From Hymenobacteraceae bacterium (GTDB taxonomy: Bacteria > Bacteroidota > Bacteroidia > Cytophagales > Flexibacteraceae), in the NCBI GenBank assembly GCA_947459175.1, contig CANHCT010000004.1, positions 1 through 48,536 on the forward strand: a stretch of 48,536 nt of DNA. The letters are read 5' to 3'. Both the position numbers and the translations under genes were made by a program. Numbering within the stretch: position 1 is the first letter of the stretch; each line of letters starts with the position of its first letter. Under the pieces are notes generated by a model. The model was not told the origin of the DNA. It did not search any database and saw only the letters and a program-made list of their open reading frames with translations. Shown here piece by piece: positions 90-5,590 of this stretch.

Positions 90-260
90 TCAATACTTAG
101 GTTTCGGGTCGGTGAGGGCGCGGAGGAAGGCTTCGAGCTGGACTTTTTCTTTTTCGTTCAGCACGATGCCTTTGGCAATGGTGGTGTCGGTGCCGATGGC
201 ATCGGGTAAAAATTTTTTCGGATCTATATAGAAATCAATGACTTCCCTCAGTGTTCTGAA
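90..260 (-). pseudogene. Duplicated 3' fragment of the di-haem cytochrome c peroxidase gene
   Basis: Positions 91-260 match 1257-1426, the 3' end of the intact peroxidase gene, in the same orientation and 1166 bp apart. I count four mismatches in 170 bp. The copy holds only the last 56-57 codons and the stop; homology stops abruptly at 260, and neither haem motif is present. The reading frame stays open to 341, so a hybrid 83-residue frame exists whose first 26 or so residues come from DNA antisense to the transposase. Three of the four differences change residues, as expected if selection is relaxed. The high identity suggests a recent duplication. I see no sign that it makes a functional protein. 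Confidence 0.85.
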
Positions 261-280
261 CATAGAAATGGTGTCTCGAA

Positions 281-292
281 GGGCTTTAGCCC
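281..292. repeat. REP-like palindrome GGGCTTTAGCCC, copy 1
   Basis: Five-base stem with a TT centre. The transposase stop codon (286-288) lies inside it. The 17-base stretch 281-297 recurs exactly at 1190-1206. Confidence 0.7.
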
Positions 293-717
293 TGACTATT
301 GAAGCCATAGCTTTTAATAAATCGCTCATATTCATCCTCAAAAGACTCCTTTTTATGATGTTCAGCTTGATTTTCTATGTATTTTCTTACCCTTGACTTT
401 GCAGATTCGCTGACGGATGCCGCAAAGTATTCATCTGCCCATTCAAATCTGGACCTGGTCAGTTTTTCTTTATTGATCCAATGGGCAGATTCCCCTTTCA
501 CCAATTGCAAGGCTTTGCTAAGGGGCATATCGGTGTTTAGGTGAAAAAGGCAATGCAAATGCTCTTCTGCCCCATTCAAGCGGTCAATATAAATCCCCTT
601 TTTCTTTGCGTTTTCTCTTATGTGTGTGATTACAATTGGTAAAATTTCTTTCGAAAGGAAAGGGTATCTGTTTTTGGTTCCCCAAACAGCGTGAATAAGG
701 ATTTGAACAAAAGGCAT
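286..717 (-). CDS. IS200/IS605-like Y1 transposase (RAYT-type)
   Basis: The 143-residue product has the size and motifs of single-domain Y1 HUH transposases. An HLH motif (EEHLHCLFHL, about residues 51-60) supplies the metal-binding histidines. A C-terminal RKYIENQAEHH segment carries the probable nucleophilic tyrosine on a helix, followed by the SFEDEY tail common in this group. These enzymes cut and rejoin single-stranded DNA at hairpins. The start is an ATG at 717 with no obvious Shine-Dalgarno. The TAA stop lies inside the palindrome at 281-292. No TnpB or IscB partner is present. Many REP-like palindromes lie nearby, which suits a REP-associated (RAYT) member, though classical insertion-sequence behaviour is also possible. 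Confidence 0.85.
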   Translation of the reverse strand: MPFVQILIHAVWGTKNRYPFLSKEILPIVITHIRENAKKKGIYIDRLNGAEEHLHCLFHLNTDMPLSKALQLVKGESAHWINKEKLTRSRFEWADEYFAASVSESAKSRVRKYIENQAEHHKKESFEDEYERFIKSYGFNSQG

Positions 718-801
718 AGAGTTGTCAGGTCATTTAATGTCAAATGAAGTCATTTTTTTTAATGCCAATGACTGAAAGCAAATTCTTGCCAATTTAATTC
801 A

Positions 802-813
802 GGGCTAAAGCCC
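802..813. repeat. REP-like palindrome GGGCTAAAGCCC, inverted copy
   Basis: Reverse complement of the palindrome at 281-292, placed 85 bp upstream of the transposase start codon. Together they bracket the transposase gene. Confidence 0.65.
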
Positions 814-836
814 GCTTGGCTTATGCTATTTCTGTT

Positions 837-856
837 CCCCGGCTTAAAAGCCGGGG
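837..856. repeat. REP-like palindrome CCCCGGCTTAAAAGCCGGGG
   Basis: A 9-bp stem with an AA centre, followed by a GGTTATGG-type tail. It is the longest-stemmed copy and opens the tandem array. The same core with a 7-bp stem recurs at 903-918 and 967-982, and with one change (CCGGTTT) near 1031. Confidence 0.75.
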
Positions 857-1059
857 TTATGGGTTTCGGGATTGTCATTTAGCTTTACTTCTTGCCTGCT
901 TACCGGCTTAAAAGCCGGGGTTATGGGTTTCGGGATTGTCATTTGGCTTTACTTCTTGCCTGCTTACCGGCTTAAAAGCCGGGGTTATGGGTTTCGGGAT
1001 TGTCATTTGGCTTTACTTCTTGCCTGCTTACCGGTTTAAAAGCCGGGGTTATGGGTTCT
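841..1059. repeat. 64-bp tandem repeat, about 3.4 copies, each with a REP-like hairpin
   Basis: Units start at 841, 905, 969 and 1033 (partial, ending near 1059). Units two and three are identical and unit one differs at a single base, so the array expanded recently. Each unit begins GGCTTAAAAGCCGGGG and continues with a TTATGGGTTTCGGG segment and a pyrimidine-rich tail. It is not a CRISPR array, because the whole unit is conserved and nothing behaves as a spacer. Open frames across it are a by-product of the repeat. Confidence 0.9.
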
Positions 1060-1147
1060 CCTTATGCTTGCAATTTTTAAAGCACGATTTTTCGCTTTGT
1101 CCGAAGTTATGGCTGGCTGCAAAGCGGTTTGGGAAGCCCAACCATAA

Positions 1148-1167
1148 CCCCAGCCTTCAGGCTGGGG
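1148..1167. repeat. REP-like palindrome CCCCAGCCTTCAGGCTGGGG
   Basis: A 9-bp stem with a TC centre, preceded by CCATAA. That is the reverse complement of the TTATGG tail on the other repeats, so this copy is inverted relative to them. The stem differs by compensating changes from the GGCTT family (GGCTT/AAGCC against AGCCT/AGGCT), which argues that the hairpin, not the base sequence, is conserved. Confidence 0.7.
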
Positions 1168-1189
1168 TGGATAACCGGGAAATGGTGCC

Positions 1190-1201
1190 GGGCTTTAGCC
1201 C
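1190..1201. repeat. REP-like palindrome GGGCTTTAGCCC, copy 2
   Basis: Same orientation as the copy at 281-292, with the 17-base match continuing to 1206. This pair flanks the whole transposase plus repeat array. Confidence 0.65.
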
Positions 1202-1224
1202 TGACTTATCCTCTCATTCATACT

Positions 1225-1236
1225 GGCTTGAAAGCC
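1225..1236. repeat. REP-like palindrome GGCTTGAAAGCC
   Basis: A 5-bp stem with a GA centre, followed by GGGGTTATGG like the tandem units. It lies 20 bp past the stop codon of the intact peroxidase gene, that is, in the 3' flank where REP hairpins often sit. Confidence 0.6.
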
Positions 1237-1255
1237 GGGGTTATGGATTATCCTT

Positions 1256-2209
1256 TCAATACTTAGGTTTCGGGTCGGTGAGGGCGCGGAGGAAGGCTTC
1301 GAGCTGGTCTATTTCTTTTTCGTTCAGCACGATGCCTTTGGCAATGGTGGTGTCGGTGCCGATGGCATCGGGTACAAATTTTTTCGGATCTATATAGAAA
1401 TCAATGACTTCCCTCAGTGTTCGGAATCGGCCGTCGTGCATGTAGGGGGCGGTTTTGGCGATGTTTCGCAGCCCCGGGGTTTTGAATTTGCCCAGGTCGC
1501 TGCTGTCTTTGGTAATCGCAAACCGGCCCGGATCCCGGTTTAATTTGCCGTCGTACAGTCCTACATTTTTGAATTCATCGTCGGTAAAGTCGGGCCCGAA
1601 ATGGCAATCGAAACACTTGCCCTTGCCGATAAAGATTTTTTGCCCTGCAATTTCATCTGCCGTCATTTCGCCCTTGTTTCTGTTGTACAGGTCAAAGCGG
1701 GAGTTGGAGGTTTCCAGTGTGGCCTCGTAAGCGGCAATGGCCTCGCCCAGCAATTTTTCGGCCGGCGGTGCTTTGAATACCTGCCAAAACCATTTTCTGT
1801 ATTTTTTGCTCCGGCGGAGTTTGGCCATGGCGTCGTGAATGGGCAGGTTCATTTCGTTGTGGTCCCGGATGGGAAACAAAGCCTGTTCTTCCAGCGAGGC
1901 AGCCCTTCCGTCCCAGAACATGAGTCCGCGGCTTGCCATATTCAGCACCGAAGGGGTGTTTCGGGCGGTGCGTTTTCCGCCAATGCCGATGCTGAAGGCA
2001 TTGGTATCGGCAAAGTAAAACTCCGGCTTGTGGCAGCTGGCGCAACTCACTGAACTGTCGGCAGAAAGGATGGGGTCGAAAAATAATTTTTTTCCCAGTT
2101 CGGCTTTGCTTAAGGGCTTTGATTTTGGTTTTTCCTGATTGGAGAAACCCATCATTGCCATGCCCAGTACCGCCAGCAGGCCCAATGTGCAGAGGCTTTT
2201 TGAATTCAT
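1256..2209 (-). CDS. Di-haem cytochrome c peroxidase (CCP/MauG family)
   Basis: The 317-residue protein begins with a signal peptide (hydrophobic residues 7-22) and has two c-type haem motifs, CASCH (56-60) and CFDCH (199-203). That is the layout of bacterial CCP/MauG peroxidases, which reduce hydrogen peroxide in the periplasm with electrons from small cytochromes. Length is normal for the family. The ATG at 2209 is preferred over an in-frame TTG at 2227, because the TTG falls within the probable -7 promoter box (2225-2232). The last 57 codons are duplicated at 90-260. The gene is monocistronic and divergent from the exosortase operon. Physiological electron donors cannot be deduced. Confidence 0.93.
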   Translation of the reverse strand: MNSKSLCTLGLLAVLGMAMMGFSNQEKPKSKPLSKAELGKKLFFDPILSADSSVSCASCHKPEFYFADTNAFSIGIGGKRTARNTPSVLNMASRGLMFWDGRAASLEEQALFPIRDHNEMNLPIHDAMAKLRRSKKYRKWFWQVFKAPPAEKLLGEAIAAYEATLETSNSRFDLYNRNKGEMTADEIAGQKIFIGKGKCFDCHFGPDFTDDEFKNVGLYDGKLNRDPGRFAITKDSSDLGKFKTPGLRNIAKTAPYMHDGRFRTLREVIDFYIDPKKFVPDAIGTDTTIAKGIVLNEKEIDQLEAFLRALTDPKPKY

Positions 2210-2335: not shown

Positions 2336-2875
2336 ATGAATCTGAATAAACCGCTGACTCGCTTTCTGTTGAAAGCTGTGGCCTTGTATCTGGGCTGGCA
2401 TTTGCTTTGGTACAACTGGATTGAGCCCGATGGTACGGTCAATCATTACCTAACCTATCATACGGCTTCGGTTGCTGCCCTGGTTCTGAATGCATTTTCC
2501 GATTCCGAATTCCGGCTTTCGCCCTTTGAGGAGCAAAATACCTATCTTTTCAAAGACGGAACAGCTGTAGTGCTCATCGAGCATGGTTGCAACGGATTGA
2601 TTCTGATGGTTCTTTTTGCGGCCTTCATCATTGCCTTTCCCGGGCCATGGAAAAAGAAAGTTTGGTTTATTCCTGCGGGGGTGCTGGCCATTTACATCAT
2701 CAATGCTATACGGGTTATTGGACTGGCAGTCAATCATATATACTCAAAATCGTCTTTCGATTTCAACCACAAATACACTTTCACCATACTGATTTACGGC
2801 GCCATCTTCTATTTCTGGATGGTGTGGGTAAACCGTTATTCGGGCATCAATGCAAAGAAGGTCGCTGCCAAATAA
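2336..2875 (+). CDS. Exosortase/archaeosortase family membrane protein
   Basis: The 179-residue, multi-spanning membrane protein carries the three invariant exosortase residues in family contexts: Cys85 in EHGCNGL, Arg126 in NAIRVIGL and His145 in FNHKYTF. Exosortases are transpeptidase-like enzymes thought to process C-terminal sorting tails of exported proteins. It overlaps the next gene by 26 bp. Bacteroidota encode several short exosortase types; the neighbour looks like the membrane protein that accompanies one of them (possibly the XrtX type), but I cannot settle the subtype by eye. No substrate with a recognisable sorting tail is in the window. The ATG at 2336 is chosen because upstream in-frame sequence contains the promoter and a non-membrane extension. 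Confidence 0.85.
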   Translation: MNLNKPLTRFLLKAVALYLGWHLLWYNWIEPDGTVNHYLTYHTASVAALVLNAFSDSEFRLSPFEEQNTYLFKDGTAVVLIEHGCNGLILMVLFAAFIIAFPGPWKKKVWFIPAGVLAIYIINAIRVIGLAVNHIYSKSSFDFNHKYTFTILIYGAIFYFWMVWVNRYSGINAKKVAAK

Positions 2876-3338
2876 GCTGGGCCTTGCCTTCAGCCTGCTG
2901 GTTTGGGTATTGCTCTACCAGTTTTCCAAGGAAATTTTTGAATGGGCCCGTCCTTTGGTCTTTCAATTCTACGCTACCGGACCAGGTACTTTGCTGCTTC
3001 GGTTTTTTAAGGATACCCTGCATTTCACAGCCGATAATCCCGACTTTTTTATCAAAATTGGTTTTTCTATTCTCTACATTTTCAGCTACTTATGGTTTAT
3101 GGGATTGTATTTTGGCTTCAAAAGTATCCGGCCTTTGATTCTTACCGTGTTTGCAGGATTTCTGGTTTTGTCCATTGGATTGAATGTGCTGGGCAAAGTG
3201 TTGCGGATAGAATCAGCCGTACTTTTGTCCAGGAATACCAATGATTTGATGGTTTCTCCGTTTATGCTGGTGTTTCTCTTTCCCGTGGTGAAGCTTTATT
3301 TTGCCGACCTGGGAAAAAATCCTGATGAACAAAAGTAA
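2850..3338 (+). CDS. Exosortase-associated integral membrane protein
   Basis: The 162-residue protein has about four hydrophobic segments (near residues 11-26, 67-88, 93-115 and 135-150). It lacks catalytic motifs I know. Its start lies inside the exosortase gene and its stop overlaps the next gene by 14 bp, so the three are probably translated together. Small membrane proteins of this kind sit beside certain Bacteroidota exosortases, and the position here is the main argument for a shared role. The family assignment is from context and general resemblance, not a decisive motif. Confidence 0.65.
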   Translation: MQRRSLPNKLGLAFSLLVWVLLYQFSKEIFEWARPLVFQFYATGPGTLLLRFFKDTLHFTADNPDFFIKIGFSILYIFSYLWFMGLYFGFKSIRPLILTVFAGFLVLSIGLNVLGKVLRIESAVLLSRNTNDLMVSPFMLVFLFPVVKLYFADLGKNPDEQK

Positions 3339-4347
3339 GCTGATCTTCGTCTTTTGCTTTTTTTGGAGCCTCGGCTCTGCGGCACAGGATTTTCAGTTTG
3401 GTCAGTTTTATGCCGTTCCTCTTTACTACAATCCTGCTTTTGCGGGTTCTAATTTAAATTCCAGGTTTACAGCGGGTTACCGGAGTCAGTGGACCGGCCT
3501 GCAGGGCTGGCGGGGCTGGCTTGCTTCCTTCGATTTGTATTTGAAAAATGCCAGTTCCGGTGCAGGAATTTACCTGAGCAACAACAGTATAGACCGGCTT
3601 GGATATTCCCACAGCACGGCCATGGTTCAGTATGCCTACAGGTCTAAGATTTCAAAAAAAATCAGGCTATCTACCGGCATCGGGCTGGGTTTCGGGCAGG
3701 TGGGTTTAAATTTTTCCGGGCTCACTTTTGGCGATCAGCTGGAAGGCGACCCTGTGGCTCCCTTCAGTGCCGACCAGGTTGCAGGCCGCAGTCTTTCGGC
3801 TTTTTATCCTGATATTCAGATTGGTTTTTTGGTTTATTCTCAAAAATGGTGGGTTTCGCTCTCCAACCTTCATCCCCACAGCCCTACTTTCGAACTGAAC
3901 GGAGAAAACCAGATTCAGCGGCGCATCAACCTGTCTTTCGGCTATCGCTTTGAAATGAAAAAGCCCACCGATTACAAAGGGGAAATTTCACCCAATGCCA
4001 TTACCCCGGCCATCCTCATCCGCAATCAGGGTTCGGCCAGCCAACTCGACCTGGGCATTTACATGCACTATGTTCCTTTTGTTTTTGGGCTGTGGTACAG
4101 GGGCTTACCCACCTCTTTTGCGGTAAAAGACGGAAAGAAAACTCTGAATCAGGATGCCCTTACGGCATTGGTGGGCATTAAACAAAACAACCTTTCCATC
4201 GGGTATTCCTATGATGTAAACCTGTCGGGGCTGGTCGGTGTACTGGGCGGAAGCCACGAGATATCGGTGACCTACGAATTCAAAACCAAATATCTCAGCC
4301 TCAAAGGTTTGAAGCACAGCAAGGCACTGCCTTGCCCTTCTTTTTAG
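3325..4347 (+). CDS. PorP/SprF family type IX secretion-associated outer-membrane protein
   Basis: The 340-residue protein begins with a signal peptide ending near SAAQ (residues 17-20), followed by the YYNPAFAGS motif that marks PorP/SprF proteins. The rest alternates in the manner of an outer-membrane beta-barrel with many aromatic strand ends. PorP/SprF members help type IX secretion clients reach or stay on the cell surface. The start at 3325 overlaps the previous gene, suggesting coupling. Its place in an exosortase operon is unusual, since PorP/SprF genes more often follow large adhesin genes. The last codons overlap a terminator hairpin. Confidence 0.85.
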   Translation: MNKSKLIFVFCFFWSLGSAAQDFQFGQFYAVPLYYNPAFAGSNLNSRFTAGYRSQWTGLQGWRGWLASFDLYLKNASSGAGIYLSNNSIDRLGYSHSTAMVQYAYRSKISKKIRLSTGIGLGFGQVGLNFSGLTFGDQLEGDPVAPFSADQVAGRSLSAFYPDIQIGFLVYSQKWWVSLSNLHPHSPTFELNGENQIQRRINLSFGYRFEMKKPTDYKGEISPNAITPAILIRNQGSASQLDLGIYMHYVPFVFGLWYRGLPTSFAVKDGKKTLNQDALTALVGIKQNNLSIGYSYDVNLSGLVGVLGGSHEISVTYEFKTKYLSLKGLKHSKALPCPSF

Positions 4348-4366: not shown

Positions 4367-5590
4367 TCAGGCCCCGATTTTCCTGATCAGCCATTCGGCA
4401 GCTTCTCTGCCGCTCCGGAGGGCACCGTTCAGCGAGGGATAAATGCAGTGGTCTCCTATGCTCAGTTTTCTGCCTTCTGTTCTGAAAGCCAGTGAATTGC
4501 CTTGAGGAAAAGCCGGAAGGGCGTAGGGGATTTCAATAGTTTCAAGGAGCGAAAATTCTTCCCAGTTTACTTTAGGATAAATAGCCTGCAGTCCTGACCG
4601 CATTACGGCCATGGCATCTTCCTCTGGGGGCAGGGGAGAAGATAGGGTAATGGAGCACAGACATTTGCCCGGCGGGGCATAGCTGTTTTGGGTGGCCGAA
4701 GGAAAACAGAGATGCAGGATCGGCGAAAAGGGGTCGGCATTCAAAATCAGGCTTTGGGGCAAGTCCTTCTGTGCGGGTCCTTCCAGATACAAGGTGAGGG
4801 TATTTCTGAAATTTCCTTTTTCTCCTTTATCCTGAAAAGAGCGTGCATCCACAATCCAGTCGGCTTCAAGTATCTCTTTGTTTTCCAGCAAGATGGTACC
4901 TTCATTTATTTCCCTAACGGGAGTATTCAGGCGAATCTCCCCTGCTGTTTTGGCCATAAGGGCGGGCAGGGCCGCCATGCCTTTTTCGGGCAGGCAGGCG
5001 CTTCCTGAAAAAAATTTGGCCAGGAGCCAGCGGAAATATGCGGCCGGCAGTCCGAGATTGGGGTCGAGAAATACACCGCCAAAAAAAGGCCTGAGAAACC
5101 CCAGATAAAACGATGGACTGAAATGGGCACCGGCGATAAAAGTGGCTGTGGTTTCCTTCTGTACATTTTTCCAGAAATCAGGATGGGCATGGCGATACTT
5201 CAGGGCCATCCATCCCATTTTCAGCATATCCGAAAGGGTACCCGGAAAGCGAAACAAAGTATAAAAAAGCCTGTCCGGATGGCGAAGGGGATGAAAGGCA
5301 TAGCGGAGATTTCCACTCCCTGCAGCAACCAAAGCCCCTGAATCAAAGGTCTTTGTATGGAGTTCGGCAAAGGGTATGGCGCGGCGGACCTCTTCGTAGG
5401 AATCGAGCAAGACCTGAAATCCCTCATCGAGCAAGAAGCCATTTTTTTCCCGGGTGCGAATTCGTCCTCCTGCCTCAGACTCCTTTTCTATGATCAGGGT
5501 TTGGATGCCTTTTTGATGCAAAACCTGCGCACAGCGAAGACCGGCAATGCCTGCCCCTATGATGATAACCTGATGTCGTTGTTGGCTCAT
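4367..5590 (-). CDS. FAD-dependent oxidoreductase (amine oxidase/phytoene desaturase-like)
   Basis: The 407-residue protein opens with a Rossmann dinucleotide motif, GAGIAG at residues 12-17, a glutamate at the end of strand two, and GGRIRT shortly after. This is the FAD-binding pattern of the amine oxidase/protoporphyrinogen oxidase/carotenoid desaturase superfamily. The C-terminal NGALRSGREAAEWL segment is the usual second FAD contact. No membrane segment or signal peptide is seen, so it is likely cytoplasmic. The substrate cannot be read from sequence; there is no carotenoid gene beside it. It lies downstream of priA with a 130-bp gap in which I see no gene. Confidence 0.8.
   Translation of the reverse strand: MSQQRHQVIIIGAGIAGLRCAQVLHQKGIQTLIIEKESEAGGRIRTREKNGFLLDEGFQVLLDSYEEVRRAIPFAELHTKTFDSGALVAAGSGNLRYAFHPLRHPDRLFYTLFRFPGTLSDMLKMGWMALKYRHAHPDFWKNVQKETTATFIAGAHFSPSFYLGFLRPFFGGVFLDPNLGLPAAYFRWLLAKFFSGSACLPEKGMAALPALMAKTAGEIRLNTPVREINEGTILLENKEILEADWIVDARSFQDKGEKGNFRNTLTLYLEGPAQKDLPQSLILNADPFSPILHLCFPSATQNSYAPPGKCLCSITLSSPLPPEEDAMAVMRSGLQAIYPKVNWEEFSLLETIEIPYALPAFPQGNSLAFRTEGRKLSIGDHCIYPSLNGALRSGREAAEWLIRKIGA

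Follow-up and report, generated by a model that had tools for sequence, protein, structure and literature searches.

A duplicated peroxidase gene end beside a Y1 transposase looks like a one-off recombination scar

Introduction

How does the end of a gene come to stand twice, in the same direction, on either side of a transposase? The question is raised by the draft genome of a Hymenobacteraceae bacterium (3.01 Mb in 243 contigs), where two copies of a peroxidase gene tail sit either side of a Y1 (HUH) transposase gene, here called tnpA, and a field of REP-like hairpins. The window, meaning the whole stretch of 48,536 nucleotides that was analysed, comes from contig C4, and its position 1 is the end of that contig.

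Results

The gene tail is duplicated with sharp edges

Positions 90-260 and 1256-1426 form a gap-free direct repeat of 171 bp with 97.7% identity, and an E-value of 4e-82 excludes a chance origin. The four mismatches lie at 142, 145, 209 and 257, and the longest exact run between the two tails is 63 bp. The inner copy (1256-1426) is the end of an intact minus-strand gene of 323 aa (1256-2227) for a di-haem cytochrome c peroxidase or MauG-like protein (PF03150, 5.6e-52). The outer copy (90-260, minus strand) comprises the last 57 codons of the gene including the TGA, with no frameshift. The identity begins abruptly at the last base of that stop codon (TCA at 90-92 and 1256-1258) and ends just as abruptly at 260/1426. 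The duplication is therefore confirmed as real in the assembly. The original prediction had placed it at 91-260 and 1257-1426 with four mismatches, which proved right to 1 bp, and its description of a copy that starts at the stop codon and ends cleanly inside the gene agrees with the sharp edges on both sides.

A search of the whole genome found no third copy of the peroxidase tail and no further copy of the outer flank (1-89). Only 89 bp of this non-repeated sequence lie beyond the outer copy because the contig ends there; its plus-strand frame from position 1 reads KPELYPHFADERGSARVR and then a stop, and is possibly the end of a convergent gene. At other contigs, too, ends lie in or near short tandem repeats (L196 15580-15845, L198 1-159 and L168 197-387), which in L196 take in the end of a gene-like frame; strain mixture or breaks in the assembly are possible there.

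Three of the four differences between the tails change an amino acid. Compared with relatives, the outer tail carries a derived residue (V to L) and so does the inner tail (K to I). Since each holds a residue absent from relatives, both tails have diverged; two alleles or two gene copies would show this pattern, whereas one merely decaying copy would not.

Relatives with two full peroxidase genes at this locus and no element, which the original prediction had named as counting against it, were not seen among four congeneric genomes; each of these has a single orthologous peroxidase (62-71% protein identity) with no adjoining transposase. To judge by their sequences, these four genomes are too distant to reveal the ancestral state of the locus, and a genome with either parental allele was not found among those compared. 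The L19 ribosomal protein gene, which lies 3' of the peroxidase in two congeners, is found here on a different contig (C230), and neither the tail nor the module is near it. On the other side of the gene, window positions 2336-4347 hold an exosortase-like gene (PF09721, just under the cut-off), a small gene and a PorP/SprF type IX secretion gene (PF11751), an order that is kept beside the peroxidase in three congeners. A related transposase in one congener (G001) was considered for a comparison of filled and empty sites and set aside, as it occupies an unrelated site and is without the stop-codon hairpin.

The transposase resembles TnpA_Y1 subclass 1.2

The tnpA gene (286-717, minus strand) encodes a Y1 HUH transposase of 143 aa with the motifs EHLH and YIENQAEHH. 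Its product matches PF01797 (Y1_Tnp; 92.8 bits, 2e-26) and scores above the cut-off of the IS200/IS605 model NF033573 (61.2 against 55), but falls far below that of the REP-associated NCBIfam model NF047646 (26.7 bits against 80). Related solved structures are 2xm3 and 2a6m, the IS608 transposase among them. We read the anatomy of the family from 65 tnpA relatives with flanking DNA, giving 66 loci with the window. The Y motif follows the pattern Y---Q--HH in 61 of the 66 loci, the window included, while the W motif is WA in 56 of them (WADEYFAASVS in the window) and not WQ.

TnpA_Y1 subclass 1.2 is described with the Y motif Y---Q--HH, the W motif WQ and no REP listed (Quentin et al. 2018, PMC6006769, Table 1). 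Our family shares with it the Y motif, a short protein (143 aa here against a median of 148), an occurrence mostly in Bacteroidota and a low copy number, but differs in having WA and a conserved hairpin module. Because of the W motif we describe tnpA as subclass-1.2-like rather than as a member. The remaining Y1 genes in the source genome are only 31-35% identical to tnpA. Related genomes have long flanks in common at several tnpA loci (L133/L135, L123/L129, L085/L095, L096/L103 and others), and from this pattern the genes concerned look domesticated and inherited at fixed sites.

The family carries a two-hairpin 3' end

In the window, hairpin 1 (281-296, minus strand) reads TCAGGGC-TAAA-GCCC, and the tnpA stop codon TAA (286-288) supplies the first three bases of its loop. 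The same arrangement, with the stop TAA within GCTAAAGC as part of the TAAA loop, is found at 41 of the 66 loci, the window among them. A second hairpin with at least 7 of 8 pairs follows at 49 of the 57 loci that have an intact tnpA end, mostly about 26-32 nt past the stop. Hairpin 2 is 20 nt long (8+4+8), with a loop that is mostly TAAA or TGAA and a foot that is mostly TTA. Across 20 distinct hairpin 2 sequences, 98.1% of cells are paired, a percentage biased upward by the choice of hairpins for their pairing; the variety of stems is unaffected by this choice, and both sides have changed in 7 of the 8 pairs, in compensatory fashion. The covariation score is 0.80; shuffles give 0.21, and sliding the pairing gives no more than 0.10. 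Upstream of tnpA, too, 46 of 56 loci have a hairpin of equal size with at least 7 pairs; chance may account for a few of them, which are AT-rich. This little-studied Y1 clade near subclass 1.2 carries a conserved, strict two-hairpin module with the stop codon in a loop.

The window holds several further units of this kind. Upstream of tnpA is a complete two-hairpin unit on the plus strand (795-866; hairpin 1 core 800-811, hairpin 2 837-856, foot TTATGG), and overlapping it are tandem 64-nt units with one hairpin 2 apiece (832-1057, plus strand), of which 839-1057 contain 155 bp at 98.7% identity. A complete unit in inverted orientation follows (1142-1206, minus strand), and then a last, degenerate hairpin-2 unit (1221-1255, plus strand), whose similarity to the unit at 1029-1063 stops at 1255. 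No hairpin units were found away from the tnpA locus in this genome, every exact copy being at that locus, so the dispersed cognate REPs by which RAYTs are recognized are absent. Like RAYT/REP systems (REPtrons, REPINs), the locus combines a lone tnpA with palindromes in inverted orientation; unlike them, it has no GTAG/GTGG foot, its hairpins are restricted to the tnpA locus and its protein misses the REP-associated model. With the IS200/IS605 elements (IS608, ISDra2) it shares the protein family and hairpins near both ends, but it differs in its single copy, in the inheritance in place of several loci and in the stop codon within a hairpin loop.

The tail begins where hairpin 2 should be

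On the 3' side of tnpA in the window, hairpin 1 is present but hairpin 2 is not: at its expected start, 29 nt past the last coding base of tnpA, the peroxidase tail begins instead. The part that is missing can be read from the complete units at 795-866 and 1142-1206. A spacer (261-280, minus strand) separates hairpin 1 from the place of the missing hairpin 2 and is partly homologous to the spacer of the 1142-1206 unit. The spacer of the upstream unit ends in ATTTCTGTTC before its hairpin, and the broken end reads ATTTCTATGTTC and then runs into the gene. The TTC at 258-260 (minus strand) belongs to the gene and, by comparison with the upstream unit, is also expected at the hairpin 2 foot; this shared triplet may represent microhomology. 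Since hairpin 2 is present at 49 of 57 loci, whereas the window is without it and the tail starts in its place, this inner junction is a broken, non-canonical module end. At the other boundary (1255/1256), the degenerate hairpin-2 unit directly adjoins the peroxidase stop codon.

Relatives of the transposase have no copied gene ends

The original prediction had called for a search for other genes with a copied 3' end beside this transposase family. We compared the flanks of 62 transposase relatives for which each side extends at least 150 bp, checking direct and inverted repeats and their coding content. None of the 62 has a duplicated neighbouring gene end, and their flanking repeats are the family's own hairpin units; a repeated gene end was likewise not found in 15 further loci. 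One apparent coding repeat (L115) proved to be a hairpin array inside an over-called reading frame. In addition, 81 stretches of the source genome (1.27 Mb) contain no other gene-tail repeat across a transposase, and the lone transposase-flanking repeats in them are palindromic and surround a second tnpA. Gene-end capture as a property of the transposase family is thus not supported.

A second, distant Y1 transposase of the source genome (L169, G000:C12) is flanked by repeats of about 100 bp (4475-4572 and 5311-5409, 85%) that hold palindromes of their own, namely GACCCGCAGAGCGGGTC and a GACCCC..GGGGTC form. Elsewhere, a transposase relative (L064) in the closely assembled genome G081 is flanked by large repeat arrays (598-1476 and 1985-2822; 886 bp, 89% between sides). 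An integrase-type attachment site, in which an island restores the 3' end of a gene, was considered for the peroxidase locus and set aside, as there is no integrase in the 1.2 kb.

Discussion

The duplication looks like a one-off recombination scar of an ordinary kind. Our preferred reading, to which we tentatively give a probability of slightly under one half, is that illegitimate recombination at a hairpin foot joined the tnpA/hairpin module to a second copy or allele of the peroxidase gene. In this chance join, codon 268 of a second, slightly diverged peroxidase copy would have been fused to the module on its 3' side, where the terminal hairpin has its foot. We infer that the likeliest donor was an element-free allele of this locus on a sister chromosome or from a related strain, running spacer, stop, tail, gene, whereas the element-bearing allele would have had the module inserted immediately past the stop codon. 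A single join of these alleles would give spacer, tail, module, tail, gene, leaving the intact gene unharmed and the outer tail as a dead scar. With the module placed exactly after the stop, as suggested by unit similarity that runs to 1255 and a gene that starts at 1256, the repeat boundary at the stop codon would need no second coincidence. We favour recombination between alleles because one join accounts at once for the boundary at the stop codon, for the divergence of the tails and for the broken hairpin; that the 62 relatives have no gene-end repeat also counts for a one-off recombination event. Bacteria are documented to undergo recombination in which one end is homologous and the other illegitimate (PMC3240628), and also to acquire duplications by transformation (PMC3784515). 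The locus resembles these in being a partial duplication that has homology at one edge and meets unrelated sequence at the other, but differs in that the event is read here from its scar. Weighing against allele recombination, the TTC microhomology is just 3 bp, the replacement of an amino acid by three of four differences is unusual for two functional alleles, the parental alleles were not found, the congeners are distant and the locus ends a contig.

An identical final structure, with the identical broken module end, could also arise if the whole peroxidase gene had been duplicated in tandem with the module in the middle, and a deletion starting at the hairpin-2 foot had then trimmed the outer copy to its last 57 codons. 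Neighbouring peroxidase paralogues do occur elsewhere in the order (for instance at G025:C41, G009:C1 and G016:C20), and a dead copy would be expected to gather amino-acid changes. However, the inner, functional copy has a derived residue as well, congeneric genomes have a single copy at the locus, and this route works only if a duplication border or a module insertion fell precisely on the stop codon and a deletion took place as well, more steps than allele recombination takes to the same structure. We therefore regard it as unlikely. The original prediction had offered the erosion of a second gene copy as one of its two routes, and that part is compatible with our results. Its other route is capture by the element. 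In such a capture, the HUH transposase would have cut its terminal hairpin at the foot and joined it to an exposed single strand of the neighbouring gene, with the duplication as a rare by-product of its normal activity. The junction does lie at a cognate hairpin foot, and the protein belongs to a family of single-strand nucleases and ligases. Yet no second case exists among the 62 flanked relatives or the 15 further loci, and the junction hairpin, instead of serving as an end, was lost. IS200/IS605 enzymes insert beside a tetranucleotide without target duplication, which also speaks against capture, and we consider this route highly improbable.

It is improbable, too, that the contig end is a chimera produced by assembly or from mixed strains, in which sequences of two strains or loci met, for example, at the 64-nt hairpin units. 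In its favour, the repeat lies within the first 1.4 kb of a contig in a 243-contig draft, the units at 839-1057 are near-identical over 155 bp, the tails share an exact run of 63 bp, and short tandem repeats are found at other contig ends as well (C62, C64, C11). But the junction between tnpA and the tail (260/261) shares at most 3 bp, which makes a graph misjoin unlikely there, and a misjoin within the hairpin units would still leave a real tail beside tnpA. Also against a chimera, the 81 stretches surveyed hold no other such repeat.

Recombination between alleles remains our preferred account, and the scar should not count as evidence for gene-end capture by REP-type transposases. The more interesting outcome is the conserved hairpin module of this transposase clade, whose two-hairpin signature is a candidate recognition site and a candidate control of tnpA expression.
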